Assembly: GCF_037038585.1 (NCBI RefSeq)
Contig: NC_092525.1
Location: 25,626,867-25,690,866, forward strand
Length of the DNA: 64,000 bases
Source: Patagioenas fasciata
Taxonomy: Eukaryota > Chordata > Aves > Columbiformes > Columbidae
Direction of reading: 5' to 3'
Below are positions 1 to 39,100 of this stretch, piece after piece. The first letter of the stretch is position 1. Each line of letters opens with the position of its first letter. The notes under the pieces were generated by a model, which saw only the letters and a program-made list of their open reading frames with translations, searched no databases and was not told where the DNA came from. The translations under genes and the position numbers were made by a program.

Positions 1-1179
1 TTTGAATATCTGGATTCTCGTTGGCCTGGAAGTCACAAACAGATATGTATGGCACTGGTTCACTCTAATCTCTTACCTCCATGCACTGTCAATTTCCTGC
101 TATGATAAAAGAAGTGTGTTATAAAACCAACCCAGTTTTAAGAGAAAAAAAATGTTACATAGATGAAAAGTTCAATATTCTTTCTTTTTTTTTTTTAAGG
201 TGAAAATTCTGCAATAATAACTTGTGTTATAAAAATCAACCAGCACGTGATATGTACTGTATATTAAAGAAATTAACTTCTGATGTAGTGAATGAAACTT
301 CTGTTAAGGGAGCTTAAAATGTTCCTGAGCTAAAGAGCCAACTATATGAAATATACCTGGTTTGAAATGTAAAAGAGAATGAGCAAAAAGAAGGATAAGA
401 TCACAGAAGTCAACAAGAAAACTGTGGGGAGGTAAGGTAAGGAATACGAGATCCCTTCATCCTCTTGAGCTGTGTCATGAAAGGGCATAGCACCAGTAAA
501 ATAAACTCTTTTCAGATGCCAATAAATTGTGCTCTGTCCTTAAAAAGGTGAGAAGAATAGAGGCAAGTAGCTTCCCTTCTGCGTGAGTTTGTTCATCCTA
601 CCAGATGAAGCTGAGGAATATCACTGAATTTCTTTTGCTTGAGTCCAGCTCTGTGTCATCTCCAATTTTATTTATTCCCCACCCATAATATCAAGTGATC
701 ATAAAAAGGAACATAGAGTACAGTATCTGCCGGGTGTCAACATTAGGCAGTAGCAAACCTAGGACATTTACAATACAGTAAGAGAGGAATTACATTAATC
801 TCTCCTGGCTGTCATCTTGCAAATTATTTATGCCTTTTTGAATAATAAATAGTTTCCATATGTTATAGTCAATAACCTGAGTGAAATTTTGCACAAGCCA
901 TTTAGCAGCTCACTTTCAGTTATTTGCAGAACTCCAATGGGCATAATTAAAGCTAAGAAGAGGTTCAACACTGTAAGTTCAACTGTTCAGAACCTTTCAC
1001 ATAAAATAGCAAAACACTATGAAATCATGCAAAGAGGGCCAGTTTCTGCCCTTCTATGGATGAAGACTGGATAATTTTTCTTGGGAGCAGGACTGGCTTA
1101 TAGAAGGTGCCCACGGAAGTCTTCAGGACCGAGGCATTTTCATATGTTTCTACTACAATAAAGCTAAAAAAAGAGTTAC
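1..1179. other. Intron of the factor H-like gene at the left edge
   Basis: I searched both strands for a further SCR exon (four cysteines, G-x-W, phase-1 borders) and found none. AT-rich sequence with no recognisable repeat. The next coding exon should lie left of the window. Confidence 0.5.
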
Positions 1180-1353
1180 CTTTACATACTGGTGGGGATG
1201 GAAACCATCCAAAGTAATAGCACTGAGTAGAGGCAGGTCCCACTCTCACATAACTGTTTGCACAGGTAAATTTCACAACATCTCCATTGCGGTATTTACC
1301 CTTCTTGGGAGAAAAATCTCCATTGGGCAATGTCAGCATGTTACATTCTATTG
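1180..1353 (-). CDS. Factor H-like exon 8: SCR resembling factor H SCR10
   Basis: 174 nt, phase 1-1, acceptor TTTGTAG and donor G|GTAACT. Encodes IECNMLTLPNGDFSPKK, VGPASTQCYYFGWFP and PVCKG. The VGP-S-QCY-FG block is diagnostic of factor H SCR10 and F13B SCR4. It is the last exon of this gene visible in the window; its donor implies more exons to the left. Confidence 0.78.
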
Positions 1354-4300
1354 CTACAAAGAGAAAATATTTTAACATCAAGTGTACACTCTTATAAAGT
1401 ACATGAAATACTAATGATCAGAAGAAAACTAAAGAAAGCCTTAAAGAAAAAGCTTCACAAAGTGTATACAGAGTTAACACTGATTAGTAAACACAACAAT
1501 ATTCACCAAAGCACTGGGGTGTTGGACTCCACTCGCCATTTATGTCACACCTCGAGGTACCAATTGGCATATTATCTGCAGTTTGATATCCCTCCAAACA
1601 TGCATACTCAATTGTGTCTTCAGGTATGAAATTAGTTCTATTTGCATGGTAATTCAAAATGTCCAAATGAGGTGTTTGACATGATTCTGTAGAATAAAAC
1701 AAAGTTAGAGCATTTTGTGATCCAGAACCATTTTCCTCTGGAACCATCATTTCTGTAGGTGCTTTAGTATGTGCTAGTCTATTGATCTACTCAGTATTTT
1801 TGAAATATCAAAAATTCTGCATTGCCAGAATATGAATGAAGACCATCATATGTAGCATATGAATATTATATCTATTGCATTATTCTTCAGAAACGTTTAT
1901 AGAGCTAATATCTAGCATAAATGTTTCTCCCTCAGATTTCATTCCTTTCCTTATACTACATATTATTATTATTAGTGTCACAGCAAACAGTTTGTACCCC
2001 TGTTTCCCATGGTCATTTGTAAGGAGGTCAGACAAAAAAAGTGCAAAATCCTGAAACAAAAGGATAAGTTATATATATATCTATATGTGTGTGTATATAT
2101 ATATCTATATGTGTGTGTATATATATATCTATATGTGTGTGTATATATATATCTCAGCTGAAGTTGGTCAATATTATGAGCCCTGGTATCATAACAATGG
2201 AAGATTAAGTCTCTTCTTTTACTATCCTATATCCCTGTTCAGGAGAGGAAGGAACGTTTAAGAAGAAAAAGACAACAACAATATTGAGGCATTTGCAGGA
2301 AAAAGCACTCTGGTGTTTTTAACAAATGTACTTTTTAACACCAGGGCAGACGTACGCATAGTGCTTTTTATGCATAGTGATAACATCTTTCCAAAAAATT
2401 ATTCCCTTTTTTCTCTAATTTGTTCACGTTTAAAGAAAGTTCTTGGCAGAATCCCTTGGTTCACAGGCATTTCTTCGCAAATCTTCCCTCACAAGTGTGA
2501 AAGGAGTAAGAATTAGGAGTATATTGGGCTGATATATACCTTGTATCAGGTAGGAATCAGTGGAGAGGTCAGTGATTATCATCTAATTTGTGCTAGAAGT
2601 CCAAAACCAAAACTCACCTAGGAGACAGTAGATATTTTCCTGCCTTACTAACTTCCTTTATGTTTTCTCGCTTTATTTTTTGGAGCCCCAGAAAGGTTAA
2701 TCTCTGGAGGATCAGTCCTCTATTTTAGTCTTTCTTTGCCTAATAAAAAAGCTACCAATCTAGATGACAAAAATCTGAGAACACAGGTCATCACGTCTGA
2801 GCCAGCAACGATAGGGAGCTCTGAAACATTTATGCTACTCACTGATGCACTTTGGAGGTGGAGTCCAACCATTCTCTTCACACCGTATCACTCCTCTTTC
2901 TTGTCCTTCTGGCGTTACAAAGCCAGTAAGACAACTGTAGGTGACCTTCTCCTGTAAACGAAATGTTTCCTTCCGCGAGGTGAAATAACCATTGTCAAAA
3001 GAGATACTCTGGCATTGTTCTGAAAGAGATAGACAGAATTTTTTCCAAGTAAAACACTGCTAAACTGCATGCTTATAATACACAGAAGAAGGGGGACAAA
3101 AGAAACAGCCATAGGATTTAGAACACTTTTAGGAGCACATGAAGTTTTGTTTCTACATTGAGCTCTCTTCCTGGGGGACAAGTGGAACATGAAAAGCCAA
3201 ATTTCACAGTTACAAACTCATGCAGCACAAACAGGGATGGACAAAGGTTTGATTTGCAGCAATCCTGTAAGCTTCCAAAATTGTGTGTCCAAACCTGGTC
3301 TTCACTAGAAACGAAATTCACGTTGGGCATGCATAAAGAGGATCCTCTGTCCATCTGGCAAGGTGGGGCACACCAGAAATCACCACAGTGTGCAGGTACC
3401 ACCTCTGTTCTACCAAACAGAAACCATTCAGAGTGCACGCGGTGCAGGACTGAAGCAGGTGTGTACCAAAGGACCCCTTCTTGCACACTAAAACAGTTGT
3501 GCAGACAGAAGCAATGTTGTAACTGATGTCACATCACTTAGAATACATTGTTTAAGCCAGCCTAAATAGATGGAAAACAGTCATATTGATTGGATATTCT
3601 GGTCTTGTATCCTGAATAAAAACTTCTACAGTATGCTAAATTCTTTCCTAATAAATAAACTCCTTCACAGAATAATTTAAGAAACTAACACTACAACAAA
3701 CAACAATATTTGCACATTAGAGGGTCAAGTAAATAAAGACACACACACAAAAAAGACTTTGAGGAACATTAGGGGATGTGTTTGAATGTTGGGAGCAGAG
3801 TTAATAATACATATGTGCAACAGCTTCAAAAGTTTAAATTTTACATTACTGGTATAAACACACAAAAATAATGTTTATGATTGCCTAACACTAGGAATCA
3901 TAAAATTCTATTTTGCCTGCTCATTGCTACGTCCAAATCTCAGTGGGTTGTGGTCCAAAGCATTCTGCGGTCGGTGTCTGTGTCAGGATGGGATTGCTTC
4001 CTAAAAAAATATTTTTATAATCTGAGAAAAGTTAGGTTGAATGATTTATCTTGTCCACATGAAATCATTACTTAATGTATTTAAAGTTCCTTGTGAGACG
4101 TTCTAGCAACGTCAGGCTCAATACGAGTCAGGAACAAAAGCTGAAAACAGAGTTAGGAGAGGTAACCTTCCCTTGCCTCCCCTCGTCCAGCATGACGCCA
4201 GCTGGAAAGGAAGCAAGAGAAACAGGGATCACATGAGACAGAGAGAGGATGAAAGAAGACAAGACATTACAGATAGGCTGTGCCAGGGGAATGATCACTG

Positions 4301-7300
4301 TTTATTATATTACTGCACACCTATGTAACAACAAGAGTTCACTACTGAAGACCAGAGCTTACGTTCTAGGAGATCCGATCGAGCCACGTGTGCACATTTT
4401 ACAGGGTTACATTCTGCACGTTTGTGTAGCGAATGACCTCAGCAGCACGCAGAGACGTGAGAGCTGCATCAGCCAGGTGAGAGAATCACAGCCTTGCATG
4501 TAGGTGACGTGATGATGGATTTACTGGGTTTAGCTATAAACCTCAGCAAAATGCAAGCACACTCACTTTTACGGATACATCTTGGAGGAGGTGACCAGTC
4601 ATTCTTTGTGCATGTGACTTCCCCATCTTCACGTTCAGTATAATAGTCATCATTGCAGACGTATTTAACTCTTTCACCTTCCTTGTAAACGTACTTCCTG
4701 TTATGTGAGAAGTAACCATTTTCCACGTGTCTGATATGACAGTTTTCTGAAGAAGGAAGGTAAGTACATTTAACTACAGGAATAAGTACAGCAAGAACTG
4801 AGGAAAATTAATTCTTAGAAAGACAGTTACTAAAATAGAGCCTCCTGGCATCTTTCTGTACCCTTCTAATCCAAAAAACCTTTGTGTTCAAATCTGAATG
4901 AAAGCATGTTTTGTTTCACTGCCCTTAGATTAACAAATCACATGAACAGGAGTGCAAGTCACTACATAAAGTGCTAAGAAGTTGTCTAGTAAACAATATC
5001 ACCTACCTAGAGTGCATAAAGCAAGGCTGGCTAACTTCAGTGCATCTAGCATCACGTACACCAGCTCTTGTTCGTCTGCTCTGTCTCCAGAGTGTTGATG
5101 TCTGCCCTGAGTGATTTTCAGCATTTGCCTCCAGGAGGTGTTAATATCTCTGTGCAAATGAGATTTTAGCAGCACCCAAGCGCGTAGGCTCTTCAGCACC
5201 CTGTGCCCCAGGTGTCCAGCCACGAGGAAGATGCCTGAAGAAATTCCTCTGAGCCAGACTCCACTCATTTCCTGCACTGAGCACCACTCCACTGAGGGCA
5301 GCAGGGAAAGAACAACCTCTTGTTTGAACTTGCCAAGCCCTACCAGTAGGTAGGAACTTCACTGTGAATGCACATGTGTGTTAGCAGAGGAGGCCTCAGC
5401 TCACTGCTTTAAATCTGTTTTCTAGTTTAAACCTGAAGTCAGTGTATCTGACCTATTGCAAGAGTGCGTGCCACCTTCTCAGCTCCAAAGGTTATCCAAA
5501 TGGACCAGGCAATGGACGTCAGAGAGGAACCTCTAGTTGAAGTACCCAAGCCAAGGAAGGAAGAACCTATCTACACAGAGTGGAAACTCTCTGTTTGTAC
5601 GTGCGGCTGTGTGTGCACATGAAAGAAGATGTATGCGCAGGACCCAGAAGCTAGAGAAAATAAACTTTTCCTATGTGTTTCTTAATATCATGGATAGTTT
5701 TAGGCATATAGGAACTCCAAAATCCAAAAGTATCATTTCAGCCTTACATACTGCAGAGTGTCACCAGCTGACAGTTCAAGCTCTGCTGATATTATGAGAG
5801 TCTGAGTGCAGTTCCAGGGGTCAACTGAAGCAGGTCTACTTTAACAAACTGTTCTTTGTTCCACCTTGTGCTCCATCAGCACAATTTCTGATGCACAGAA
5901 CTTTGATAATTATAACAGAACTGCCAATAAAGTGGACATGTACTTACTGAGGCATTTTGGCTCTGGAGACCAGCCCCTTTCAGAACAGACTACTTGAACC
6001 CAGGATCGTCCACTTGGGGTTGAATAACCATCATTGCAGCGGTAATCAGCATGCTGCCCAAACCTCATCGGAAAGTAGTAGCTTCTGTAGTACTCCAATG
6101 TGTCACTTAATTTGCCATTTTCAATAACTGGGTAGTCACACGGTTTCTCTGGAAATAGAATTCAACACCAACAGTATCAACACATGCTTGACAAAAAGTT
6201 CAGGACACAAGTAATTCAGATGGTTTCATCATCTCAGTGCTTTCTGAATCTGACAGAATCAGGACCACACATTTGGCGGATCCTAAGGAGTACAGGAACA
6301 ATTGCGCTCTGCTTTTGATGTCTTGGTCATTACCTATAGTTCCTATGGTTCCCTTCATTTAAATTACAAGCAACAGAAATGCAGTCAATATTCTCAGTGG
6401 AATCCAAAGGCTGATTCATGAGACCAAATGTATGTGTTTATTTCTTTGCTAATACTGTGCCTACTGGGCAAAACGATTTTTGTAGTTATGGAAAGTTTAA
6501 GCCAATAAAGAGCTCATAAACAATCAAGAATATCTTGGTTTGTTATTTGACAGGTTAAAATAGGTAGAATAAAACTGATTGTCCATGATATACCAACATA
6601 CAACCGCAAGTAGAAATCTAGAGCTGTGATAATGATGATGAAAGACACCTTCCAATCATTAGCTAGATTTTGCCTTTTTTGGAAAATTTTAACACTCACT
6701 ATGCCATCTTATCTGCAACTGCTATGAGCACGTGTGTTTAATCACACTTTATGCTGTTCAAATTATAATAAATGGGGGTTTCAAAGCAGCAAAATGCAGT
6801 GCTGAAATTCTGAAAAATCCATACATGCATCTGACATTCCGACATATGTACAGCTCTTCTAAAAGCTCTTCTGACTTCCCAATCAGATAACATATTAACA
6901 ATTTAAGAAATTTGATGGACTGAATATTTAACAGTGATTGTTACCATAAGCTTCCTGGGATTTTGCTTACATACTGACAATCCAATTCCATACAATCTCT
7001 GTTTGGAAAATGGGAGGAATAACCCCATCCACCAGTAGGATTACTATCAGCAAATATAATTGTCGTTGGAAAACCAATTGCCCACTGAATAAACAGTCTC
7101 TAACAGTACAGGTGGATGCAGTTCATGCACATGAACAACTGCAAAATTACACATAAGATCTATTTGACAGATCAAAATTATACAAGTATGATGCATATTT
7201 ACCACATGAAGGAAGTTGGATATCCCCATTAAAACACTGCCTGACAGGAGAGGCTGCGGGTTTAAATCCTGTCACGCACATAAATTTCTGCGACTGACCA

Positions 7301-9580
7301 CTTTGAATCAAAAATGAGTGTCTTTGTCCATTGGATAGAAGGAGATTTTTCACTTCCAGTTGCTGTTTTGTGATGATACATGGTGCTAGGGGAAACAAGA
7401 TAAAAGAAAAATGGTAGAGTATGAATCTTTGGTGGCTTTTAGCACGTGAAGCACCTCCTCAGCAAAGACTGTGCAAAACCAGCTTGGTTGTGACTCAGTA
7501 GGGATTTTTGAAAGTAAAATATAGACAACATAAACATTTAATCTCTATCACAAATAATTCAGGATGTTTAGTTTTAGGTAGTTTATCAATGATATGGCAC
7601 AACTTTCAAGCATATTCTTATTTACGTGTATAAAAGAATTGACAGACTTTGCAAATACCTCTCAAGAGGTACTGATTTCAGGAGACTGTATTCCTTGTAA
7701 TAATTAATTAATGAAATCAGTAGGAGTAAGTCTTATTTCATCCCTGTTGAGTTTCCATTATCTAGGATTAAAAATGAAATTATAGGATTCCTAACAAAGA
7801 GCTCTGCTGAAGGAACTGAAGACAGCAGAGCGGTTTACCACAGCAGTTCTCCTCCCACCTGTGAGGGACAGTGAGGAAACTACATGAAAGGATGCTTTAG
7901 CAAATGTAATCTCTGTATAAAGAGGCTGACACCACTGTCAGTACCTGCCCATTGTTGCATAAGTTCTTGTAAGTACAGACAAAATGTTTATGTGCTGGTA
8001 ACTTTCCAGACAACTCCAAAATTCTCACAATAAAAAACATGATTGAATGTAAGTGATTTTGGGGCCCTAAAGCCCAAGATCTACAAGCTAAGTAGTATTG
8101 AACCCAGGGATTAATTTCAGTCCTTTACAGACTTGGTAATCAAACAACTAATGTAAACCTAATTCTGAAACTCCCATTTTAAGAATGATCAGTATTGTCT
8201 ACCAGTACAAAGTCAGCTAGCAATAACAGTTACACTTACCCAAACATTGTGGTGGCCCAGGTACCCATATTTTTTCATGGCATGTTACCCATTCTGATCC
8301 TGATAAAGTGTATCCAGCGTTGCACATGTACTGCACTCTGTCTCTTTCCATATATCTCGATTTATTCCCACTAATAATTTCTCCAAAGTCAATGTCAGGT
8401 GGGTCTTCACAGGCAGTTCCTGCAGAAGCAGTGCACAGAATCTTGTTATCTGACTGCACCCTGCCATTTTCTTCTTATCCTGATTTATGTCTAACTAACA
8501 ATTTCTTCAAAATCAAAGCTATGTGGGTGTTTGCATGCCATTCCAGCAGAAAGCATCCACAAGTTATTGTTAACTGATAGACACAGAACAGTACTGACAC
8601 TTGCAAATAATGGAACTATACAAATTGGATGATATTCTGATGACCTGCATCCCTCCATCTGAGGGATTACTGTACTAATAAACAGCACTATCTTCTTGCT
8701 CTAAGAAATTCTCAACATCTTTACTATTTTCACAGTCTTTACATTGAAAAATGTTACTGAACTAAAAATATTTTAACTGAAAATATGAATAAACTTCTGA
8801 ATTTTTCACAGTGCAGTTTCTGTTTTCCAGCATTATACTGGAATAAGTTTTTACATCTGCAATCACAATTCTCAATTTTCTTTAATTCTACAAATAAGTC
8901 TGTTTGTCCTGGGTTCCTAAAATTAGTTCAACCATTCTAAATTGAAAGTATAAGGTACATATAAGTAACTACTTCTAAAGGCAGAGGGGGTAGAAGAATC
9001 TGAATACGATGAATAGATTTAAATGGATAAATCATGGAGTTTAAAATTGGTTATTTAAATAAAGGTAATAATTCAGTGAAGATCTCCTTCAGGTAGCATG
9101 TTTATTGTATCATACAGCTTATTGAAATAAAGTACCTCTATTTTTAGAGAGTTGTATAATACTTTGAAAAAATGTTGTATGTATTCAGAATATTTGTAGC
9201 TAAATTGAAATGCAAAGGCATTTATATGGATTAATCTATTTGAAGTTAGTTATGGCTTGTAATAAGTTCGGTTCTTTATGAGAAGTTTAGGCAGAAGACA
9301 AAGAAGCAATCTCACAAGAAAATACAAAGCAAATATTTTAACATGCATAGTTCTAAGTTGTAACTCTGTTAGTAAGCTTCTGAAAGGAATTATATAAGAA
9401 GCAAACAGTATAGTGTGGTAATGTTGCTGTTGGATTTTTGTTGTTGTTGTTTAGTTCCTTTTTCCTGATTGTCACCAGCTACATCAGTTGAATACATAGA
9501 TTTCCATTCAATAACTTACCTTCATGTGCAGTACAGCCCAGCCACAGCAGAAACACCACGGTGCAGCTCAGCAGCGCCAT
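1180..9580 (-). CDS. CFH: Complement factor H-like gene, 5' part (signal peptide + 7 SCR exons, continues off left edge)
   Basis: Secreted sushi-domain (SCR/CCP) protein of the factor H/CFHR family, which regulates the complement alternative pathway in plasma and on cell surfaces. Coding exons on the minus strand are 9520-9580, 8240-8419, 7203-7385, 5948-6148, 4567-4746, 2843-3019, 1507-1686 and 1180-1353. All have GT/AG borders and phase 1, so they join in frame to about 445 residues before the window edge. The first two SCRs resemble the factor H SCR19-20 pair; the next five resemble SCR6, 7, 8, 9 and 10 in order. Nothing resembling SCR1-5 is present. The gene lies head-to-tail downstream of F13B. 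It could instead be two genes: a short two-SCR CFHR ending after 7203, and a second gene whose signal exon I could not find. The symbol means 'factor H-like'; orthology is not proven. Confidence 0.65.
1507..1686 (-). CDS. Factor H-like exon 7: SCR resembling factor H SCR9
   Basis: 180 nt, phase 1-1, acceptor TTCTACAG and donor G|GTGAAT. Encodes SCQTPHLDILNYHANRTNF and ends WSPTPQCFG. Like SCR9 of human factor H it lacks the usual NG after the first cysteine and has an NxT glycosylation sequon (NRT) in the first half. Confidence 0.78.
2068..2155. repeat. 24-bp tandem repeat with alternating TA/TG core
   Basis: A unit made of a TA run, CTATATG and a TG run, about 24 bp long, is repeated three times almost without change inside the intron between exons 6 and 7 of the factor H-like gene. 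It looks like a compound microsatellite and is likely to vary in length. Confidence 0.85.
2843..3019 (-). CDS. Factor H-like exon 6: SCR resembling factor H SCR8
   Basis: 177 nt, phase 1-1, acceptor TTTCAG and donor A|GTGAGT. Encodes QCQSISFDNGYFTSRKETF, then a VTPEGQERG stretch and GWTPPPKCIS. The SISFDNGYF and G-VT-EG blocks match SIDIENGFI and GYVTADGE of human SCR8. Confidence 0.78.
3118..3530. other. Intron segment open in both directions; unidentified
   Basis: A stretch less AT-rich than its surroundings stays open for 122 codons on each strand (3118-3486 minus, 3158-3526 plus) within an intron of the factor H-like gene. The minus-strand reading is cysteine-rich and contains DCCKSNLC, which recalls the closing motif of Ly6/uPAR domains, but spacing and flanks do not build a full domain. 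No splice or start logic supports a gene. Confidence 0.3.
4567..4746 (-). CDS. Factor H-like exon 5: SCR resembling factor H SCR7
   Basis: 180 nt, phase 1-1, acceptor CTTCTTCAG and donor A|GTGAGT; an alternative donor C|GTAAAA lies 6 nt earlier in the same phase. Encodes NCHIRHVENGYFSHNRKYV and ends DWSPPPRCIRK. The HVENGY and WSPPPRCIR segments correspond to LENGY and WSPTPRCIR of human SCR7, the domain that holds residue 402. Confidence 0.78.
4990..5480. other. Intron segment with higher GC; no gene recognised
   Basis: Part of the intron between exons 4 and 5 of the factor H-like gene. It has short overlapping minus-strand open frames (4999-5292, 5141-5362) with no family motif. It may be an old repeat fragment; I cannot name it. 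Confidence 0.3.
5948..6148 (-). CDS. Factor H-like exon 4: SCR resembling factor H SCR6
   Basis: 201 nt, phase 1-1, donor A|GTAAGT. It encodes KPCDYPVIENGKL and YYFPMRFGQHADYRC, then RGWSPEPKCLS. The PCDYP start, the FP-V/M segment and the STPSGRSW block correspond to SCR6 of human factor H. SCR1 of F13B is the next closest relative. Confidence 0.8.
7203..7385 (-). CDS. Factor H-like exon 3: SCR domain of SCR20 type
   Basis: 183 nt, phase 1-1, acceptor CCCCTAG and donor G|GTAAAT. It begins APCIITKQQLEVKN and ends IQLPSCG. The PC start, the SGQS-KFMC core and the short C-terminal half match the terminal-type SCR of factor H (SCR20) and SCR8/SCR10 of F13B better than ordinary SCRs. If the donor is not used, translation runs 18 more codons into the intron and stops at 7147, which would make a two-SCR secreted protein. 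Confidence 0.75.
8240..8419 (-). CDS. Factor H-like exon 2: SCR domain of SCR19 type
   Basis: 180 nt, phase 1-1, acceptor TTCTGCAG and donor G|GTAAGT. It encodes one sushi domain with four cysteines and the conserved tryptophan, starting ACEDPPDIDFGEI and ending PGPPQCLG. The PPQCL ending that runs straight into an APC start in the next exon mimics the SCR19-SCR20 border of factor H. Confidence 0.8.
8473..8600 (-). pseudogene. Broken tandem duplicate of factor H-like SCR exon 2
   Basis: The stretch aligns with exon 2 and its upstream flank (about 8349-8476) at an offset of about 124 bp: GATTTAT, CTAA-AATTTCT and the GTGGGT-T block all recur. The encoded start, AGMACKHPHSFDFEEI, mirrors AGTACEDPPDIDFGEI. 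Only the 5' part of the SCR is present, followed by a stop, with no second cysteine pair and no donor. It is a decayed exon duplicate lying just upstream of the live exon. Confidence 0.75.
9520..9580 (-). CDS. Factor H-like exon 1: signal peptide
   Basis: The ATG at 9580 opens a hydrophobic leader beginning MALLSCTVVFLLWLG, ending in a donor G|GTAAGT after 61 nt (phase 1). This is the standard first-exon layout of factor H family genes. A TATA-like box lies about 75 nt upstream, so the 5' UTR would be short. Confidence 0.8.
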
Positions 9581-9650
9581 TTCCAAACTTTAGAAGTTGA
9601 AGATGTCCTCTGCCACAGCGTTGCTATTTTCTGCACTCCGAATTGCATGT

Positions 9651-9659
9651 CCTTTTATT
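9651..9659 (-). promoter_or_regulatory. TATA-like box of the factor H-like gene
   Basis: Minus-strand AATAAAAGG lies about 71 nt upstream of the ATG at 9580. That places a transcription start near 9620-9630 and a 5' UTR of about 45 nt. A TTGCAAC-type C/EBP-like motif lies about 55 bp further upstream, near 9710, which would suit a liver-expressed gene. Inferred by motif and position only. Confidence 0.45.
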
Positions 9660-11689
9660 CACTCCCATGATTCCTGAGGATGTTCTTGCAGTCTCCTCCC
9701 CTAATTTTCTTGCAACACAGCAGTCAACCTGTAAAGATAAATTATGCAGTTGTTGCAAAAAGGCTTCCAGTTTTTTGACAAAACTTTTCAGACTGAACTT
9801 GACACAGAAGCATTATGAAACCCATAACTAAAACCTCACAGTATGTTTATAACGCAAAACATAGTGCACTTAGTTTTTCAAGCCTAACATTTTGTTATGG
9901 GCAAAACCACCTTATATGCAGAGCCCATAATTTATTATCAGTCTACTTAAAATCTTAACAGCCTAATAAAAATACTGATTTATTGTTAGTCCACTTCCAA
10001 TAACGCTAACACTCATAGTCCAAATTAATGGAAAAAAAAAAGCTTCAGTAATGCTTTAAAAAACAAATAGACAAACAAACAAAAAACAACCCCCAAAACC
10101 CACCACTGTCCTAGCACCTAAGCAGTTCCTCTGCTGTTACACTCCTCCTTCCCCTGCTCTCTGGCTGACAGCACCAGTCTTTCTCAAGGAGGCTCTCAAG
10201 GCAGGGGGAATGCCACGTGAGCCATTAGTGTACCAAGGTTTTTGTTGGGAAGCGTTCAACGCAAGTAGCAAGGGTTCCTTCCTTCTAATACTGAGGTGTC
10301 TTTGTGTTTACATGTATGTACTTTCTTAATACATCTCACTTTTTAAAATCCCAGTTGTTTACGTCTGTTCTCTAAAACTGGGTTTACTGGATAAGACCAC
10401 ATCACACTTCTGCTGGGGCCACTGCTTGAACACTGTGGGGGTTTTTTACAGTCTTTGACCTCTGTTCACCTTCGTGTCATCCTGCATTGTCCTTTCCCAC
10501 ACCACACTTTAGTCTGGAGTCACAGATAGTTCAATAACTGCTTGTTACCAGTATAAATCAGAGCTAAAACAAAAACATTTAGGTAGCCAATGGGGTAATT
10601 GTTAAACAACCGCTGTCACAGCTAAACAAACTAAAATCAGGTAAACCCAGGCAAGTCCAGAGATCCTGCACAGTCAGGTCAATGTAGAGCCTGTGCTATT
10701 TTATTAGTAACAGCAAAAACCATATTTATTGGGCTACACCCAGCAGTATAGCTTGGACTGAACATTCTCATGTGGCAATACTAAGATAATTTTCAGTATT
10801 TCATTATTTCCTGTGGAGTTTCTTACACAATCTTTTTTTTTTTTTTTTTTTAGGTCATTCTCTTTTTTTATTCCAATGCACTTGCTGCTCAGAACTATTA
10901 TGAAGAAGGAAGAACAGTGGTTTTGATTTGTTGGTGTCAGAAGAGAAAGCTTACAGTAGAATTCACTACCCTCCTGCTCTACCCAACCTGCTGCTTAGTG
11001 AAAAAAAAAATTACATTACATGCCACTGAGTGGTGTGGTACTGCTCTTGTATCCACTCTACCCAAAATTCCTCAAGACAACTACCTTCTCCTTCTGATAT
11101 CAGTTATGTTATTGGTGACCTGTGATACCTCACTGACTTTAAAACCCAGCAACTTCATGTCAGGACTTCAGAAAGTACATCACTGCTTGTCACAACATAG
11201 GAAATTACTCTGAATTCTGCTCTCAATAAATGTTCCAGAGACTGACATTTAAACCCTTTTCCTCCTTTCCCCCAGTTCTGCTCTTTAAAGAGAAGGGTCT
11301 TTTTAGATTTACCATGTATTCTTGTGCTTCATCCAGAGCTCCTCAAAGGCAACAAGTCTGGGCAACAGGCCCATGAGCTTCACTACATGAAATATTGTCA
11401 AGCCAATATAAGTAAATGAAACTTCACTGACACACAGGTTCACTTTGGTTAAAACATGTCAGTCTAAATCAGCAAACGCAGCACTCAAAACTTCAAAATA
11501 GGAAGTGCCTGATCTGTGATTTTCTACTGGGACAAAAGTCAGTTTCCTCAGTTATGTACTGTGCAAGCAAGAATTTAACTGGAAAACACAGATTACAATC
11601 TATAAATAAATCTAAATGCCTATTTGGCTAACATTTGAAAAAAAAAACCAAAACGCATAAACACAAGGTTGTTAGGCAAGGGGAAAGAC

Positions 11690-14956: not shown

Positions 14957-15168
14957 TTATTTTCCTCTTTCAACACATCTTGGATATGTCAGCTGTCCTC
15001 TCTTACACTGCACTTGAAATAAAGTTGTACCAGATTCTTCTCCAAAATGGTTCTGTTTACAGTAAAATCCAACATAATCCCCATGGTAAAAGTAAACTTG
15101 AGTCTCATAGAACCCTTGCAGCAGCACATTATTTTTCTCCATTTCATCTTTTGACAAAGTACATGGCT
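14957..15168 (-). CDS. F13B: F13B exon 11: SCR10 and stop
   Basis: 212 nt, phase 1 in, ending at TAA (14957). PCTLSKDEMEKNNVLLQGF through LTYPRCVERGK. EMEKNN-LL and PRC match human SCR10. The human protein continues about 13 residues past the last cysteine from a further exon; here the stop comes 5 codons after it. Confidence 0.9.
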
Positions 15169-18100
15169 CTAAAGAAGAGAGATGTAATCAGTGTCAATAA
15201 ATCAATTATTTCTGAAGTTGCATCATTTTCACGAACCTACATTAAAATTGTACATATTTCCCATTCTCTTAACATATTATACATGAAACTGCTGTATTTT
15301 TTGGATACTGCAGGCATGTCACATTTAAGAAAAAAAAAAAATACAGACAAGCTTACACTTATATCAACATTTTCATCTCTAACTGGAAAAAAATGAAGTA
15401 AGATCTTAAAGTTCTATTTGACAATACTCAATTTATAAATTTAAGAATCTAAACTATTGAGCCTAGAGAAGAGAAGGCTTTGGGGAGACCTTATTGTGGC
15501 CTTTCAGTACTTAAAAGAGGCCTAAAAGACATGTGGGAACAGACTTTTTTGCACAACCCATTGCCATAGGACAAGGGGTGATGGTTTTAAACTAAAGGAG
15601 AGGAGATTCAGGCAAGAGATGAGGAAGAACTTTTTTTTTTTTTACGAGTGGTGAAACACTGGTCCAGGTTGCCCAGAGAGGTGGTGGATGCCCCATTCCT
15701 GAGAACATTCAAGGCCAGGTTGGACGGGGCTCTGAGTAACCTGATCTGGGTGAAGATGTCCCTGTTCATGTCAGCGGGGGTGGACTGGATGTGCTTTGAA
15801 CATCCGAAGGTCCCTTCCAACCTAAGTTACTCCTATCTATAATTCTATGAATTATAGAGAGAAATAAGTTCTTATTTATCATATCACACCTACCTATACA
15901 AACTGGTGGTGAAGTCCACTGCCCTTCAGAACAGTAGATTGTCTCAGATCCTTGCAAAAAATGATAGTCAGAGCAACTATACTGAACCGAAGAACCACTG
16001 TCATATTGGGTCAGGGGTGGGAGAGTAAGAGCTCCATTTGCAATAGAAGGTGGAGAGTCACATTTTTCTGTAGGAGCTGGAATAATGTTAAAAACATTTG
16101 AGAAACATTCAGCTTAAGAAGCTAAGAAATCAGCGGCTTTAAATGCCTGTCAACACTAGATATCTACCAGCTCTCATTGTCTTTTCTTACTATTTCATTA
16201 TGTCTCAGATCAGAATGCAATCTCCTGCTGAATTCTAGCCATAAGAAATCCCTTGTGTGCATTTAATCATTCAGAGTCATCTTTCTGTAGAGCTTTGAGT
16301 TCCCTGGTCTTGCAGAACAGCTCCTGCCCCTTTCCCTGTCAAAGAAAGGTGTATCGTTTTTCTGTGTTTGGATATATTTAATACTACAGCTATCTTGTGC
16401 AAGGATATCTGTGTACATCTGTATTGCTGAATCCTAACCATCTATTATTTACAACAGCTTCTAGGCCTGCACTTCCAAAGCAAATTGTTTCTAAATAGGT
16501 CTGAGACTAATTAATTAAAAAGGCAATAAAAAACTATTGTTTTACCTTGCAAAATGCATTTTGGATATTTCAGTCTGCCATGGTTGCACTGTGTCCTCCC
16601 AGGAGACAGAATGGTAGTCTGGAGAAAATTGTACCCCTGTTTACATTCGAACTCTACGAGATCACCATGTAGGAAAATTAATTCTTCCTGTCTCCATTTC
16701 AACTCTATGTTGTTGCTGTCCAGATCAATTACATTAAGAGTGCATGGTTCTAGAAAATAAAAGTGTACTTCAATTAAAAAAGTAACCTTAAGTGATTTCT
16801 TAGCACCCTTTTGTAAGAGTCAAGAAAGAGAAATCTAAATCAATAGATCTAAAATGTTTTAGAATCTTGTAAGAAAAAGAACTATAGATGCGTTAAAAAA
16901 AAAGAGAATGTAAATATAAAGAAATGGGCTGAAGTAACACAATACGCAAAAAAACCCTGAACTGTGAATGGTAAATCACAGAAAATATACACATCTGATA
17001 GAATCTGGTTTCTACAACTATTGTAAACATATGGCAGCCTGGCTTTACCATTAAAGAAGAAAATAATTTCTTTACTGTAACTTGAAAGAACTTCGTATAA
17101 CGAAAATATGCATCCATCATTCATCCATCAAAATCACCCGTTTAGATTTGGTCCACAGGTTTGGTAAGCCTTTTGAGGATACTAGTAGTTAATACACAGT
17201 AAGTTTCAACTAAAGAAGTGTTTTGACAATTTCCTTTCTTCACCTTTTTGCTTTGCTTTGTCAGTTCTAAAAAAATGTCTAGATCTTCCAAAAACCCTTC
17301 GGAAGTTTTGTGTTCTTCTTTGGGCTTTTTCATGTTATTCAAAGTCAATATTATTTTGGTTGCTTTCTGTCACATTTCTTAAAATTTAGTGCCAGGATCA
17401 CATGAGGTAGCCTTGCTTTCCATTAGGCAGTTAACCTCATTAACTTTTGGAACCACTGATCTACTTAAATGAAGCCTGACAGAGGGACAGTTATAGAAAT
17501 ATATTTCTACAAGTTCCACAACAACCGTTGCCTGATAAAGGCCTTTATTAATGCTTTGCTGAGGGAAAGGCAAGGAGAAATCAGTTATTATGCATTTTTA
17601 TGACAGCACCATAAGAACAACTAGGCATGGGTATTTTCCTGAAACTAAGTACAGTGTGTGCTCTTTCTAGTCCGATTAGGTGAGGGTTGAAAAGAAATCT
17701 CAGAAAACATGGAAAGAATGATGTGGTTATTTGGATGGTTAGGAGACAAATGATGTTTATAGGAAATGAGTTTTCATTATTTCACAGGATTTGTTAAATT
17801 TGAGTATTCAGATCTAAGAATGCTGAACTGGATCTTTTGATCCAGATGAGGTACATTTTATTCATTTAAAAATAAGTAACAAAAACTGAACTATTTATGT
17901 CCATTTTCACAGCAGATTATAGACTTGAAGTCAATTTAACAAAGGATGCTGGTAAATAGAATGATTTCACTACAGGAAGAAAGAAAGGAAAGATAAACAA
18001 ACAATTCTTATAGGTCATCAGTAGTAGTATTTCTGCTAGTATTGATAATTCCTAATAGTGTTTTGAACAGCATACCTAAGCGCAACATGAAAAAATTGAA

Positions 18101-21100
18101 GTCCAGAATGAAATAATAGATGTAAAGACACATAATAAAACAGAGGCTGAAGTTTTAAAAATGAAGGTCCAATATGTCATTGTTTTACTTGTTAATCATA
18201 TCTAAAAGCCATTCTGGCAATGACTGCAGACATCTATTGAAAGACAAGAAGAAATCCACTGAATGGAGAATATGGGAGAAAGAAATTAAAGAATCCTCCT
18301 AGGTAACAGGGACAGCTATGTTGTACAATAGTTCGACTCAAGAAAACAGAGAAATCTCTTTAATTGGCTGTTCATAAGAACAGGCCAGAAGACACTTGCA
18401 GGAGTGGTGTGGGTATATTTGATTTTGGGTTTTTGTTTTGGGAATCTTTATTAACTCAAATGAAAGAGAAAAGGTGGTAATGAAAGAATTATCTAGAAGT
18501 TCTTCCCAGTTTTGCCTTTCTGTATTACGTATGACAAAGCTTACCTAAGCACATTGGTTGTTCAGTCCAATTTCCTTGTTCACAGTAAACAGTACTAGGT
18601 CCTTCCAAAAAATGGTAACGCTGACAACTGTATTCTACTGAGGAACCATTCTTGTAACTTGTCAATAATGGACCAAGAAGAACACCGTTTTTAATCACAG
18701 GTGGAGAGGTACAGTTTTGCTGCATTTCTAATACGAGGTAGGGAGATAGGTATTTAGATATTTAAAACAATGTTAACACTGTTGAAAATATCAGACTAGC
18801 AATAGACTCAGCAGAAATTTACATACAAATAAAACGTAAAACAATGTAATTTCTTTTTCAAATTTTGTTTTCAGAAACTGTACACTTGCCTTACTGAACT
18901 GCAGGCAGGCACTCTATTTCCTTCTACGCTCCTCATCTATGTCCACCCTTGACTCTTGCTAGTTCACACTCACTATAGATTAGTTCTTTTTCTGTGATGA
19001 GACAGTCTTTATTTGTTGCTTCATATGGTTAGCATATGCGTGGTTAAAAATAAAGAAAAGAAACCTCACTGGAACTATTAATCAAAAGATCAGTAAAATA
19101 CTCCTAGATTTGCATGTTTAGACAACATTAACAGAAGGGGCACAAAATGACTGAAGGTAAATGCTAATGTATAAAATAAAATTACAAATACAGCACCGGC
19201 TTATAGGTGTAGTTTATAACCACTATAAATGAGCAACGATGGCCTTTCAGTCAGCCAGTCAGACTGTTATTAATACACTGACATCTGCAGCATGTGCAAA
19301 CGTTTTCAACAGTAAGGAACTGTACTGCAGCAAAAGAGTAGTCCTAAAATGCCTATAATAGCATTGGAGAGTACTGAAGTCCCTTTTAAATAGAAAAGTA
19401 ACATTCACCTACTCGTATCTTCTTCATGATATGTTTTGCTTGTCCTTACTGCTGCTTGTGCTTTGAGTGGTGGTGGTGCCTCAGGTTCCCACTTATCCAT
19501 AGCTCCTATATGCACAGCAGAAACTAAGAATCAGTTTTCTCAGAAATAACTCATTTTTAAATACCAAAACAGAGAGACACTGATGTGTTGTAAGAGGTAA
19601 TAAGATCAATGTTTCAGGGAAGAACTACACAACACATATTTCAGTTGAATTCACCTAGGTCATCCTTTCTTTTTTTCTATGAACAACAGATTGTTGTTAA
19701 ATTATGCAGAACTTTACCTCTCCAGTATTTTAGCACAAGAGGACATAAAGAGTTTTGCAGATATAGAAACTGAGGCTCTGTGGAAAATTAAAGCATTGTT
19801 TGAAGAACTATTTCTGTTCAGCTGTCAGTCTTCACAAAAGTACTCACCAATACAAATGGGGGGTGATGACCATTTTCCTTCTACACACTGGATTTCAGTT
19901 TCAACAGTATTTTGACACTGTATACGAACTTTGTCTCCGTTATGATATGTTCTTTTAACTGTGATGACATGGGCATGAGGAGGAAGCGGTGGTGGAGGAC
20001 ATTTGTTTTTTACATCTGGAAATAAAAAATGTATACTGTTTTCTCACTAATCTAAACCACGTAAACATTTTTACTATACAATTTGCAAGCCTATCACTCA
20101 AAAGACATTTTTGGTTGATCCAGAGTAATTACTTACACTCATGTTGTTCACAAAATGGGAGACCACAACAAAAAAGTGATTTTACATTCAACAAATATAA
20201 AATGTAGATATTATGCTATTGCACTGTTATAAACCACTTTGTAATTTCTCTGCAAAAACTCAATAAAGTGTTCCTTAAAGGACTTCAGGAAATGGAGATT
20301 TTTCATATCCTCCATTGACATAGTATTTAAAGCAACTTATGTATTAATTCTAATGCTACAGAAGTAGCAATAATCATAGCCCATTTCCTATCTCCAAATT
20401 AAGTTTGTGATTACTGTATCCTGAAAACTAGATTTAGGCCTGAGCACCCCACCTTCACTGCACTCACTCAAAATTCCTGTTGTCTCGTCAGAATAAATAC
20501 AGGGCTGGTGTCCTAATACATGCCATTTAAGTGAGATATTCTAGTGCAATTTAAATGCTACTGTATCTTCTAGGAAAGGAAGATTAATTTTTAGAAAACA
20601 TACTTCACAGGAAAAATTCCTGTAAAAATGCACTGGAAAAGAATAGCATAGATTGAGCTTAAAGCAATAAAAAGGGTTGGTTTCCCTATCCTCTGTTATC
20701 AATGCCTGGCATCACTTGTATATAAAGTAGAGAATTTGTTACCACAAGACAGCGAGATCTCCTAAAGCTCAGAACTAATCCTCATGAAGAGGACAATATC
20801 CAGATACAACAATGACCCACAACTATCAAGGTATGTTGAACAATATTATAAATTCTCAGCTAGTCTAAATGTTGTGTTGTATTGTTTCCTGCTGTATGCT
20901 ACATGTCATCTGGTTCTCTAGACTTTTCATTCTTCCGAAAGTTTATTTTCTGAGAATCTCTGTTATCCCCCAGTGAGTGAGGAAGTGATGGTAATTGCTA
21001 AAGTTGTGTTTCTGTCCTCAGGAAGACCCTTCTGGTTAATGCTGATGAAAACATGTACTGTTTGGTGAGGCTGTAAAACTCGGAGAAGTATCACAAAACC

Positions 21101-24100
21101 CCAGCTCTGGAGAAACCCAGAGATTTTTGTTACAGATTTTCTTCTTAATGCCTCTCAAGAGGCATGATCCCACCTTACCAAGTGGGATTAAACATGCTCG
21201 ATTAGAACTTCATGCAATATGGTTTAACTTGAGCTTCAGGGTCTGAACGACTTCCCTGCAATTGTCAATTCCTGCTTCTCCAGGGTACAACATATAGACG
21301 AACAACAGCAAGAGACAATATCTGCTCTATTGTTAGTCTACCAAAAGCTTATTCCAGTTATCATTGCCTGCCTCCCTCCCTGTCACCTTGGCTCCACTTG
21401 CTTCAGCTACCACTTGATTTCTATTTAAGCTGTGAACTGGTACAAAAAGCATCTTTTCCTTTTGTATTCGTAAAGCATTTCATGAAAGAAGATGCTAGTA
21501 TTTCACTAAGAATTTGACATAATAAAACTATAAAAATAAGGTACCTTCACACACTGGAGGGTCTGGGTACCATCCAAAATAGTAACATTGAATTAGGTCA
21601 AATACACTGACAGAATAATTTTCCTCACAGAAAAAATGAACAACATCTCCCTCTTCATAAATTTTCTTCACAGGATAGAAACCTCCATGTGCTATTGCAC
21701 TCAACGAGGAGCAAGTTATTTCTAGGAAGAAAAGATACAGCAGTGAAATCCAGTTAAAGAAGGCTTCCCGAACCCTCAACAGCCTATAAAACAAGCCTTT
21801 TCTTAACTTTTTGTTCATTTATAGAATAAACCACATTTCAAATATTATTATTTTCCAGCCCATTACTTACTAGTGCAATTTGGAGGAAGGGACCACCCAT
21901 GTGTTAGACACACTGCTTCTTCTGTAGTGTTTCCTCCTGCAGTGTGGTATCCCTCATCACATCTGTACAGCAGTGTTTCATTCAATCGAAGCTCTTGTCG
22001 GTCTGTGAAGTAGCTGCCGTGATGTAAATTTGGTACTTGACATGACTCTTAAATAAATAAAGCATATACAAAATATTAATAGCTCTTTTCATTTCAAGTT
22101 ATTTACCTAACTTGACAGTGGTCATATCCAAAGCAATAACCCTTACAAGTAATAAATAGTTAAAAATACAATAGTTTACACAAGTTTTCCAGTCTTCATT
22201 TAGGAAGTTTGGATAGCAATAGATGCAATTTCATTTACACCGATTCCTTCTACAAGATTGTCCTGGAGTCATTGAAAAACATATGAATGACAGCGCAGTC
22301 ATTGGTCCCAGCCAGCATGGGTTCATGAGGGACAAGTCTTGCTTGACAAACTTCATTTTGTTCTACGACAAGGTTACCCACCTAGTTGACCAAGGGAAGC
22401 CTGTCGATGTGATATTTCTGGATCACATCGAGCTGGGCTCAAAGGGTTCTCGTAAATGTGGTTGTGTTGGGTTGGTGACCAGTCATTAGCGAGGTTCTGC
22501 AGGGATCCATCTTAGGGCCAGCACTCTTCAATGTCTTTATAAATGACTTTATAAATGACTCAGGACTCAAGAGATTGCTTAGTAAGTCTGCTGATGACAC
22601 AAAATTGGGAGGAGCTGTTGGCACTCTAGAGGGCAGAGAGGCCCTGCAGAGGGATTTGGACAAATTGGAGAACCGGGCAATCACCAACCCTGTGAAGATC
22701 AGCAAGAGCAATTGCCAGATTTTGCACCTGCGACACAGCAACCCTGGCTGTACATACAGGCTGGGGGATGAGATGCTGGAAAGCAGCTCCATGGAGAGGA
22801 ATCTGGGTGTTCTGGTTGATGACAAGTTGAACATGAGTCAACAGAGTGACCTGATAGCCAAGAGGGCCACCCATGTCTTGGTGTGCATCCAGCACAGCAT
22901 TGCCAGCCCGGTGAGGAAGCTGATTGTCCCTCTCTGCTCTGCACTGGTGCAGCCTCACCTGGAGCACTGGGTGCAGTTCTGGGCGCCACAGGATAAAAAA
23001 AGATACTAAGCTACTTGAGGGCATCCAGAAGATGGCAACAAAATTGGTGAAGGGTTGGGAGAGGAAGCCATATGAGGAGCAGCTAAAGTCACTTGGCTTG
23101 TTCAGTCTGGAAAAGAGGAGACCTCATCACGGTTACAGCTTCCTCACAAGGGGAGGAGGAGGGGCAGGCACCAAACTCTTCCCTTTAGTGGCCAGCGACA
23201 GAATCCAATGCAGAATTTGGCCTCACAGGTACAGCAACAACAGAATGATATGTATATGAAAAAGATTATAAAGGAGAGAAATGCAGAATCCTACCAATTT
23301 TTGTAGCGCAGCTTGGCTGAGAGGACCATCCTTCTGGCTGACATTGTACTGTATCTTCAGTGGCACCACTAGGAGTGTGGTAGCCTGGATTACATTTGTA
23401 TTGCAGTTTCTCCTCTATTTTGAAGTATGTTTCTGTACCATAAAAAAAGCCATTTTCCAAAAGTGGCTTGCTACATTTTTCTGAGAGAAATGAGATAGCT
23501 TAGTTAGAAAAAGAATTCATAAAATATTTTTGTTCTCTGATAAGCAAGAGAAGGGGGTTTTTGGCTAACCTGATCTAATCTTATTTTCTTCACCTATTGA
23601 AGAAACTACCACAATCATCAAACAATACATCAAACCAATGGTAACAACCACACACACAAGAACCAAGGAATCTAGAGCTAGGGAGGCTCTATAAGATACA
23701 CATCTGAGAGGAAGTTGTCCATTAGTCTCACCGAAATAAGGAAAGTGGGCAAAGCCCTTATAATATGTATAATTGAAAAATATTCCATATCTAAATATGT
23801 GTAGTTTGTATACATAAAGGGTTGATTTCACTCCTACTATGCAGCTTCTGTTCCTGTATGTTCAAGGAAACACAGCTGTTAACAGAAGCAAAACTGAGGT
23901 AAGTAAAGCCAACTCACTGTAGCACCGGGGCACAGGAGACCATCCTTTGGCTGTGCAAGTTATTCTTCCATCTTGAGTCCCACTCTCAGTTGTATAACCA
24001 ATCATACAAGAATAGGAAAGTTTTTTTTCCTTATGCATGGGGAAATAATAACTTTTGAAACTATAATAGTACTGAGCAATCTTTCCATTTTCTATGTGTG

Positions 24101-36100: not shown

Positions 36101-39100
36101 GACTTCCCAATGAATACTTTTTTCTACATTTTAAGCAAAGTAATCACACTTAAATTATTTAGAATGTGCAAGTTAAGTACTCAGAAAATAACTAACAATC
36201 TGCCACTTCTCCCCCAAACCATGGAGGTGAGGAAGGCACACCTGTTATCTGTTAAGGAGAGCATGGGCTCTCCAGCAAGATACTAATAGCAACCTAATAA
36301 ATTATTATTATTAGAGACTATTTCCCTTTCTTCCCTCATTTGAGGGAGAAAAATCCTCTCATTCCAATAATATCCTAAGGAGAAACTGCTTCTAGTAGGG
36401 TAAAATAACTAAGGCCACCAGAGGAAGTCAACTTGAAGTTTTTTTCAGAAGGGAAAACAAAACAATCCAACACAAAAGAAAAAAAAACCCCACACCCTAA
36501 AACCATTACTATACAATTAAAAGTACCTGAATTTTTATTGTGTTCTCTTTAATTTTGTGAAACCTCTTCTTTTCAATGAATCCTCTGACTCTAGCCTGCA
36601 CAATTATAATGTTCCTCCGGGTCTCTAAGTAAGTCATTCTTTGGTGTTTCACAATCAAGTGGGATCGGTAGCATCGTTGTAAGACAACTGCTGCTTTTTT
36701 GTAGCTTGTATACTGTGATTTAGTTTTATGCATTAAGTAATAAGCTTGTAACGTAATAGCTGCTGTTCTAAGTTGAATAAATTTTCTACGCTGCACAGCC
36801 ATCTGAAGAAAAGATTGAATTTTTCTTGCAGCTCGTATTTGTCTTGCTGTTTTTCTTGCTTTCATACCACGGAAAGCAGACTGAATAATTACTATTGCTT
36901 GTCTTTGAGCACAATACTCCGCTTTCTGTAAATGAGCCCTGCAACATGCTCTGTACCACCTCTGAATAGCAACTGCTGAACTCTGAATCAGTTTATAGTG
37001 ATTCCTTGCTCTTTGGCATCGGAACATAGACTGGATCATTATTGCTGCTGCTTTCTTTCTAAGAAAACGCCTCCTTTCTACACACATTTTTAAGAAGGAT
37101 TGTATGCACCGTGCAGCAACATTGGTTTTATACAACTGCCTCGCCTTTTTAGCACGAAAAGAGGACTGAAGGCAAATGACAGCCTTTTTTATTTTTGCAT
37201 AGCTTTCCATGTCAGCTTCTTTTGCCCTTTTGGCTCTGAACCTGTGTTGTATAACTCTGACAGCCCAGCACAACTGTTTGTAATATCTATATTGTAAGTA
37301 CATGCGATAACTAGACTGTATGACAGTTGCTGAAATATGCATGGTTTTCAGTTTCTTTCGTTCCTTCATGCCTCTATATGAGGCTTGAATAAGAAGAGCA
37401 GAATTCTTCATTGTCAGGTATTTCTTTCGTTGATTCTTTCCTTTAATGTAGGACCGATAGTGGTTCTGTATAACAATAGCTGCAATTCTCATATTTTGAT
37501 AAGACCTTCTAGTCCTGTGCATTTTGTAGGCTGACTGTATAGTAATAGCAGCTAAACACATGTGCTCAATCCTCTTCCGCACTCTGATACCTCTGTACAC
37601 AGCCTGGATGTGAATAGTTGCTCTGCGAAGAGAAAGATACTCCGAAGTATGCTGTCTTGACAGAATCAAAGCTCTGTATCTTCTCTGAAAGACAAGAGTA
37701 GCTGCTTTAAGAGAGAGAAATCTTTGACGTTCTCTAAAAGCCTTAAAATTTTTCTGGACAACAATAGCAGCACTGTGCATTTTTTGACGTCGTTTTTTTG
37801 CACGCCTGTCTCGAAAAGCCTTCTGAATACAAGTTGCTGCTTTCTTTAATGAAGAGTAATGCTGTACTGCAATTTTCTTTAGGTTATTGGCTCTGTACCT
37901 CTTCTGTATTAGCTGGGCTGCCCACTGAACTTTTCTGTAATGGCAGTACTGCCTATGCATTCGGTAGTTTCTCTGTATTATAAGTGCTGCCTCACGTTTT
38001 TTCTTCAAGATGCGTCTTGTTTTCATTCCTCTATAGGCAGCCTGAAGAACTAAAACAGAATTGTACTGTTTTAAGTATATTTCTCTCTCACGCTTCCCTT
38101 CTCTGTAAGCACGATAATGTTGCTGTATGATCACTGAAGCAAGCCTGATAGCTTGATAAGAAATGTAAGTTTTATGCATTCTGAACATCGTTTGAATAAC
38201 TGTAGCAGCTTGATGCATCTGCTGCAATTTTTTTCTTACCACAAAGCCTCTATAAGCAGACTGTATGATAACAACAGCATTAAGCAAAGAAAGATATTTT
38301 TGACGTTGAATTTTTGCCTGTTTTGTTGCTCTGTATTTTCTCTGAATTACAATAGCAGCTGTCTTAATGTAAATAAAATGTTTTCTTTTGAGAAAAGTTC
38401 TAAATCTTCTTTGAATAATCTCAGCCGACTCACTCATAGTTATTATAAGTCGTCTTGTTTTCCTGCCACGGAATGCAGCCTGGATACGAAGTGTAGCCCT
38501 TTTCATAATCGTATAGTTGCGAAGTTGTGTATTTCGCTCCTTACAAGCACGGAACCACTGCTGAATCCGCCTCGTTGCCAGCAACAATTTTCTGAAATCC
38601 CTTTGTTGTTTGTGCATCCGATAGTAAGACTGTATTATTGCTGCTGACTGATGCATAGTTTTCAGGTCTTGTCGGACCTTCAAGCCTCTACAGGCAGCCT
38701 GGAGGATAATAACAGACTTCTTTAGTTCCAAGTACTTTTTACGTTGTACTTTGCCTAAACAAAATGCTCTATATTGTCTTTGAATTATAATTGCTGCCAT
38801 TCTCATTGCCTGATACTTTATGTTCAGGCGATGCATCTTAAACATGGCTTGGATACAAATAGCTGCTTGATGCATACGGTAAACTTGTTGTCTAACTCTT
38901 ACACCTCTATAAATTGCTTGCATTTTGACTGTTGCTTTTTTTAAAGACAAATATTTCTGCTTTTGACATTTGGCATGAATATTTGCACGATAATGCCTTT
39001 GAATGACTATAGCTGCAGATCTAAGTCTTTCATAGCCCTTTTTGACCATGTAGGATTTGAAGGCTGCTTGTATAGTTGTAGCACATTTGTTTAGTTTGTT

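Follow-up and report, generated by a model that had tools for sequence, protein, structure and literature searches.

What is the gene that lies inverted between complement factor H and F13B in the pigeon Patagioenas fasciata, and from which genes did its domains come? The stretch analysed, referred to here as the window, comprises 64,000 nucleotides of the 1.45 Gb genome assembly (C6:25626867-25690866, C6 numbering being that of NC_092525.1); coordinates without this prefix are window positions. The order along the locus is factor H (plus strand), an inverted gene of the factor H family (minus strand), F13B (minus strand) and, further right, ASPM and a zinc-finger gene, the names of the last two and the agreement of this order with that of man being our assumptions. 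The inverted gene stands tail to tail with factor H, in the position expected of factor H-related (FHR/CFHR) genes. In man, CFHR genes share the strand of factor H and sit in the interval from it to F13B, and a domain of the type of short consensus repeat (SCR) 20 is known only at their C-terminus. In our preferred reading, which we hold to be probable, the pigeon gene encodes an FHR-like antagonist, in which an old front made of a signal peptide and two SCRs became fused to an inverted copy of factor H SCR6-20.

The initial annotation of the window claimed eight minus-strand exons, and all of them are present, with AG/GT borders (a start codon and a donor taking the place of this pair in exon 1) and with phase 1 throughout; joined, they give one open frame.

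9520..9580, minus strand: exon 1 (predicted), start codon with signal-peptide-like MALLSCTVVFLLWLGCTAHE and a phase-1 donor
8240..8419, minus strand: exon 2, an SCR with best scores to factor H SCR18, SCR11 and SCR19 and to F13B SCR6
7203..7385, minus strand: exon 3, a divergent SCR20-type domain in an internal exon, donor GTG/GTAAAT
5948..6148, minus strand: exon 4, SCR6 of the inverted factor H copy
4567..4746, minus strand: exon 5, SCR7 of the inverted copy
2843..3019, minus strand: exon 6, SCR8 of the inverted copy
1507..1686, minus strand: exon 7, SCR9 of the inverted copy
1180..1353, minus strand: exon 8, SCR10 of the inverted copy

The first profile search was built mostly from the exons of this same eight-exon gene, so that its E-values for them are circular; the independent test is Pfam, whose Sushi cut-off is passed by six of the seven SCR exons. 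The SCR6-10 order proposed for exons 4-8 was borne out by a phmmer search of PDB chains, where human factor H was matched in order and SCR6-10 scored 214.7 bits over a single stretch of 301 residues, against 126.8 for the best F13B stretch. Taken singly, for four of the five exons (4, 5, 7 and 8) an F13B SCR outscores the corresponding domain of human factor H. F13B was nonetheless dropped as a source of exons 4-8, which sit in an arm of 16.5 kb that shares 99.3% identity with the factor H gene carrying SCR1-5; single-exon scores would mislead about their origin, because the identity of the arm and the match of the whole string both favour factor H.

The exons are real, but the gene does not stop at position 1180, where the initial annotation left it. 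When the left neighbourhood was read as that annotation had advised (C6:25540001-25630000, 87 kb beyond the window edge), SCR11-20 of the minus-strand gene were found, followed by a short last exon at C6:25616997. The whole gene, whose SCR exons are all in phase 1, comprises 17 SCRs and 1,066 residues without a stop, and its C-terminus consists of SCR19-20 and a short tail to the stop codon. Numbers within SCR15-18 denote order along the gene, sequence scores giving no one-to-one pairing with human SCR15-18.

The plus-strand factor H gene starts at C6:25576292, with a signal peptide at C6:25576292-25576352 and a last exon near C6:25607170. It encodes SCR1-20 in order, SCR2 being split, and then has a second SCR20-type exon and a small terminal exon; the reading frame stays open for 1,316 residues. 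SCR1-4 are present in this gene and absent from the minus-strand one, and the proposed FHR-like loss of the regulatory end, with SCR1-5 missing from the gene model, was confirmed, as SCR4-5 fall in a 4,056-base gap of the copy and SCR1-3 lie beyond the copied stretch. In the interval from exon 4 to F13B, exons 2 and 3 were the only SCRs detected by the profile scan; the best SCR1-5 reference for exon 2 ranks 12th of 60 (85 vs 110), and by these scores exon 2 is not a copy of any SCR1-5 domain.

The copied part of the gene belongs to an inverted duplication that was invisible from the window available to the initial annotation.

1..6714, minus strand: the part inside the window of a 16.5 kb inverted arm (C6:25617094-25633580), 99.3% identical
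6710..6956, minus strand: outer piece from the factor H SCR3-SCR4 intron (C6:25586133-25586380, 248 columns, 97.6%)
6710..6714, minus strand: junction where 4,056 bases of the plus copy, with SCR4 and SCR5, are missing from the minus copy

The two arms (C6:25590431-25606902, plus strand, and C6:25617094-25633580, minus strand) align over 16,490 columns with 92 mismatches and 11 gaps. They correspond to the SCR6-20 part of factor H, exons 4-8 being SCR6-10 of the minus arm. In a nucleotide search of the genome, which scored only the best candidates and skipped very common words, a 3.4 kb piece of the arm had exactly two matches. Homology to factor H ends at the upstream edge of the outer piece (6956), beyond which the comparison with the factor H side gave just three short matches, of 32-42 bases.

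At the inner end of the arms, homology continues at a much lower level. The inner flank (C6:25607379-25607833) and its mirror differ at 53 of 393 aligned bases (86.5% identity, with a further 66 gap positions), an abrupt fall from the arms, where identity is 99.4% and divergence 0.56% (340 of 393 identical in the flank; Fisher p 2e-49), and the same kind of genome search with the flank as query returned no match except its mirror. Because divergence changes abruptly along a continuing and otherwise unrepeated homology, we read the arms as a conversion tract within an older inverted duplication; the pattern fits an old inverted duplication that was recently homogenised. A very recent simple inverted duplication that began in the SCR3-4 intron, reached the 3' end and involved no gene conversion would instead place the flank similarity in an older, separate local duplication. 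The arm mismatches agree with it in being spread along the arm (1-11 per kb) with no divergent island, but the flanks directly adjoin the inner edge of each arm in register and match nowhere else in the genome, and we regard this alternative as rather doubtful.

Under our preferred reading of an FHR-like antagonist, exons 1-3, that is, the signal peptide and two divergent SCRs of which the last is of SCR20 type, would be the inverted gene's own, and everything from SCR6 to the 3' end an inverted factor H copy, whose 99.3% identity would recently have been maintained or created by gene conversion or re-duplication. With its phase-1 border, exon 3 could be spliced to SCR6, and the product would be a secreted protein that has 17 SCRs and lacks SCR1-5. 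Such a protein could occupy the C3b/C3d, glycan and pathogen ligands of factor H through SCR7 and SCR19-20. Lacking SCR1-4, it should be unable to act as a cofactor or to decay convertases, and would compete with factor H as a decoy. Occupancy without regulation is to be expected because the chain has SCR7 and SCR19-20 but no SCR1-4, and by homology to known FHR proteins such a decoy role appears the most likely one.

Compared with human CFHR genes, the pigeon gene is inverted, encodes 17 SCRs and carries an extra divergent SCR20-type domain near its N-terminus, and we know of no FHR gene that is inverted, of that length or headed by such a domain. Human CFHR1-5 resemble it in being derived from factor H by duplication, in lacking the regulatory domains and in keeping surface-binding domains of SCR6-7 and SCR19-20 type (PMC8044877). 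Two sources describe human FHR duplications as later than the rodent-primate split, with rodents having FHRs of their own; they also describe the FHRs of man and mouse as lacking regulatory domains and competing with factor H, and as thought to be decoys that limit its recruitment by microbes (PMC8044877, PMC11813886). Because the human duplications postdate that split (PMC8044877), an origin of the pigeon gene independent of the human CFHR genes is likely. Mouse FHRs are close to mouse factor H and have no N-terminal regulatory domains, and one of them, FHR-C, is long (constructs FHR-C13-14 and FHR-C14-15 are reported); their genes lie downstream of Cfh, and the available part of that source does not mention for them the leading SCR20-type domain of the pigeon gene (PMC11813886). 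A front of FHR type joined to the 3' end of factor H is also seen in the CFHR1::CFH reverse hybrids of atypical haemolytic uraemic syndrome, which in patients have acquired between one and three terminal exons of factor H (21-23), whereas the pigeon gene has SCR6-20, in an inverted arm (PMC9923232).

The arms themselves recall the palindromes of mammalian sex chromosomes, whose inverted arms are likewise more than 99% identical and are kept alike by conversion, according to two papers (PMC3723533, PMC8981503). Those palindromes are sex-linked, whereas F13B and ASPM are autosomal genes in chicken, and the pigeon arms contain a regulator together with its FHR-like copy. We tentatively entertain, as possible yet somewhat unlikely, the stronger proposal that an old inverted FHR gene and factor H form a bird palindrome in which SCR6-20 has been rewritten repeatedly from factor H by gene conversion while the front kept its own sequence. 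If so, regulator and antagonist would evolve in concert, and a pathogen that adapts so as to capture factor H would go on capturing the decoy as well. In birds, one survey recovered just one member of the factor H family from chicken (PMC7768046), chicken plasma proteomics lists the gene symbol CFHR2 with complement factor H as product, which may or may not correspond to the inverted gene (PMC6205363), and a seabird study names bird proteins complement factor H without giving their structure (PMC7168935). The arrangement reported here was not described among the matches listed in a search of the avian factor H literature, which covered few subscription papers. If true, it would represent a further and structurally different origin of an FHR within a near-perfect palindrome with factor H, and conversion keeping regulator and decoy alike would become testable.

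The front of the gene has a different history from that of the copied part. The best PDB match of the exon 2-3 pair is human factor H SCR19-20, with 58.8 bits for that stretch as against 39.5 and 36.7 for F13B pairs (phmmer); in direct comparisons the pair scores 179 with human SCR19-20, 173 with that of this genome and 120-144 with F13B pairs. Its identity is 32% both to SCR19-20 of man and to those of this genome, and because of this distance from both factor H pairs we judge from the sequences that it is old. The initial annotation took the two exons for an SCR19-20-type pair, which holds for exon 3, placed on a long branch within the SCR20-type clade (ultrafast bootstrap 99), and is doubtful for exon 2, which falls outside the SCR19-type clade (98) and whose placement elsewhere in the tree has a support of just 51-61. 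A recent copying of factor H SCR19-20 into exons 1-3 was ruled out by the 32% identity and the absence of a second copy; positions 6900-9700, which hold these exons, had only one other match in the genome, 57 bases in common with the factor H SCR3-4 intron.

The proposed targeting of surfaces by both SCR7- and SCR20-type modules may hold for SCR7, which is present, but is not supported for exon 3, which has S and N at the positions of human R1182 and W1183 (SCR20 numbering and residue roles as we presume them); K and W stand there in SCR20 of this genome's factor H. Because of these replacements exon 3 probably does not bring the classical C3d/sialic-acid site, which is better kept (K, W) outside the window, in the ordinary SCR20 that the inverted gene carries near its other end.

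The donor of exon 1 is the strongest of 38 scored (all with an approximate matrix), and the exon is signal-peptide-like. A separate signal-peptide exon between 7203 and 6148, which the initial annotation named as the possible start of a second gene, was sought as an ATG followed by a hydrophobic stretch and a phase-1 donor; none of the six candidates was convincing, the best having a hydropathy of 1.41 as compared with 2.64 for exon 1. Upstream of exon 1 lies a short element with a counterpart in factor H.

9688..9719, minus strand: 32-base element, 27 of 32 bases identical to one upstream of the factor H start codon (score 44)

It is found about 108 bases upstream of the start codon of the inverted gene, its counterpart about 138 bases upstream of that of factor H, and its score was reached by 3 of 400 random stretches, all three overlapping the query itself. 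We consider it a candidate shared promoter element, and the 27/32 match upstream of both start codons hints that exon 1 and the promoter share descent with those of factor H.

Several observations weigh against the preferred reading of one secreted antagonist. Exon 3 gives no match to Sushi at E<=1, only one to Sushi_2 below the cut-off (E 0.092), and lacks hallmark residues of SCR20; its structure model is poor (predicted local distance difference test score, pLDDT, 64.1) and was not used, and this poor model found no PDB match at E<=0.001. The signal-peptide scan also gave two overlapping candidates with a hydropathy of 2.2 in intron 4, downstream of SCR6. The second SCR20-type exon of the minus copy has lost 171 bases and its donor, the frame being kept if the exon is omitted. 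Between the arms, differences are no rarer in exons (17/2763) than outside them (75/13709), and the exonic ones comprise 10 non-silent and 7 silent changes, a weak silent excess (ratio of non-silent to silent rates, pN/pS, 0.39; one-sided p 0.053). The 920 copied codons hold no stop and no frameshift, and none of the 11 arm gaps falls in the 15 shared exons (chance 0.13), a record compatible with function.

The lack of reduced exonic divergence would also suit two separate products, in which exons 1-3 encode a short two-SCR FHR-like protein ending in intron 3 and the inverted SCR6-20 copy is silent. Exon 3 can be read through in frame to a nearby stop, possibly as a short intron-retained form.

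7147..7202, minus strand: in-frame read-through of exon 3 to a stop, with an 18-residue tail

The hexamers ATTAAA (6742) and AATAAA (6442) lie within intron 3, and an intron-retained short form, FHL-1, exists for factor H in man. Such hexamers, however, occur also in five of the six other non-coding stretches scanned, the phase-1 donor of exon 3 is intermediate in strength (the inverted gene has 17 other donors, of which 9 score lower), and the 15 copied exons are free of frame damage; altogether we find two products unlikely. Factor H SCR20 and 20b of this genome are themselves internal exons with donors, so that no special event has to be invoked for the donor of exon 3.

That the inverted arm is an assembly artefact, a misplaced allele or a fold-back read that leaves only exons 1-3 truly between factor H and F13B, is very unlikely: a divergence of 0.56% could also separate two alleles, but the inner flanks are homologous at these two places only (86.5% identity), a fold-back would not leave an abrupt change of divergence in them, the arms differ by gaps of 4,056 and 171 bases and by 66 transitions and 26 transversions, and the 150,866 joined bases contain no N.

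Two features of the factor H copies are further observed. The second SCR20-type exon of factor H (C6:25606832-25607029) follows SCR20, so that two domains of SCR20 type would close the chain, an arrangement that is not known from mammals. In both copies (C6:25602703-25602909 and C6:25621294-25621088), the exon at the SCR15 position, whose acceptor was picked by a simple score, is without the second canonical cysteine and carries an additional one further upstream.

Within the window, F13B (14960-24173, minus strand) has nine recognisable SCR exons, of types 1-5 and 7-10 (SCRs spanning 24110-14975), and profile scans of the window found no SCR6-type exon for it. At 19408-19482 (minus strand), a short open stretch, EAPPPLKAQAAVRTSKTYHEEDTSR, ends in a stop and resembles by eye the start of F13B SCR5; it looks like a decayed SCR exon where F13B SCR6 is missing. 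A very long open frame of IQ-like repeats at 36509-41185 (minus strand), which we take to be ASPM, is adjoined by a zinc-finger exon at 61362-62111. More Sushi exons are clustered on the same chromosome about 1.2 Mb away (C6:24378524-24382805, minus strand).

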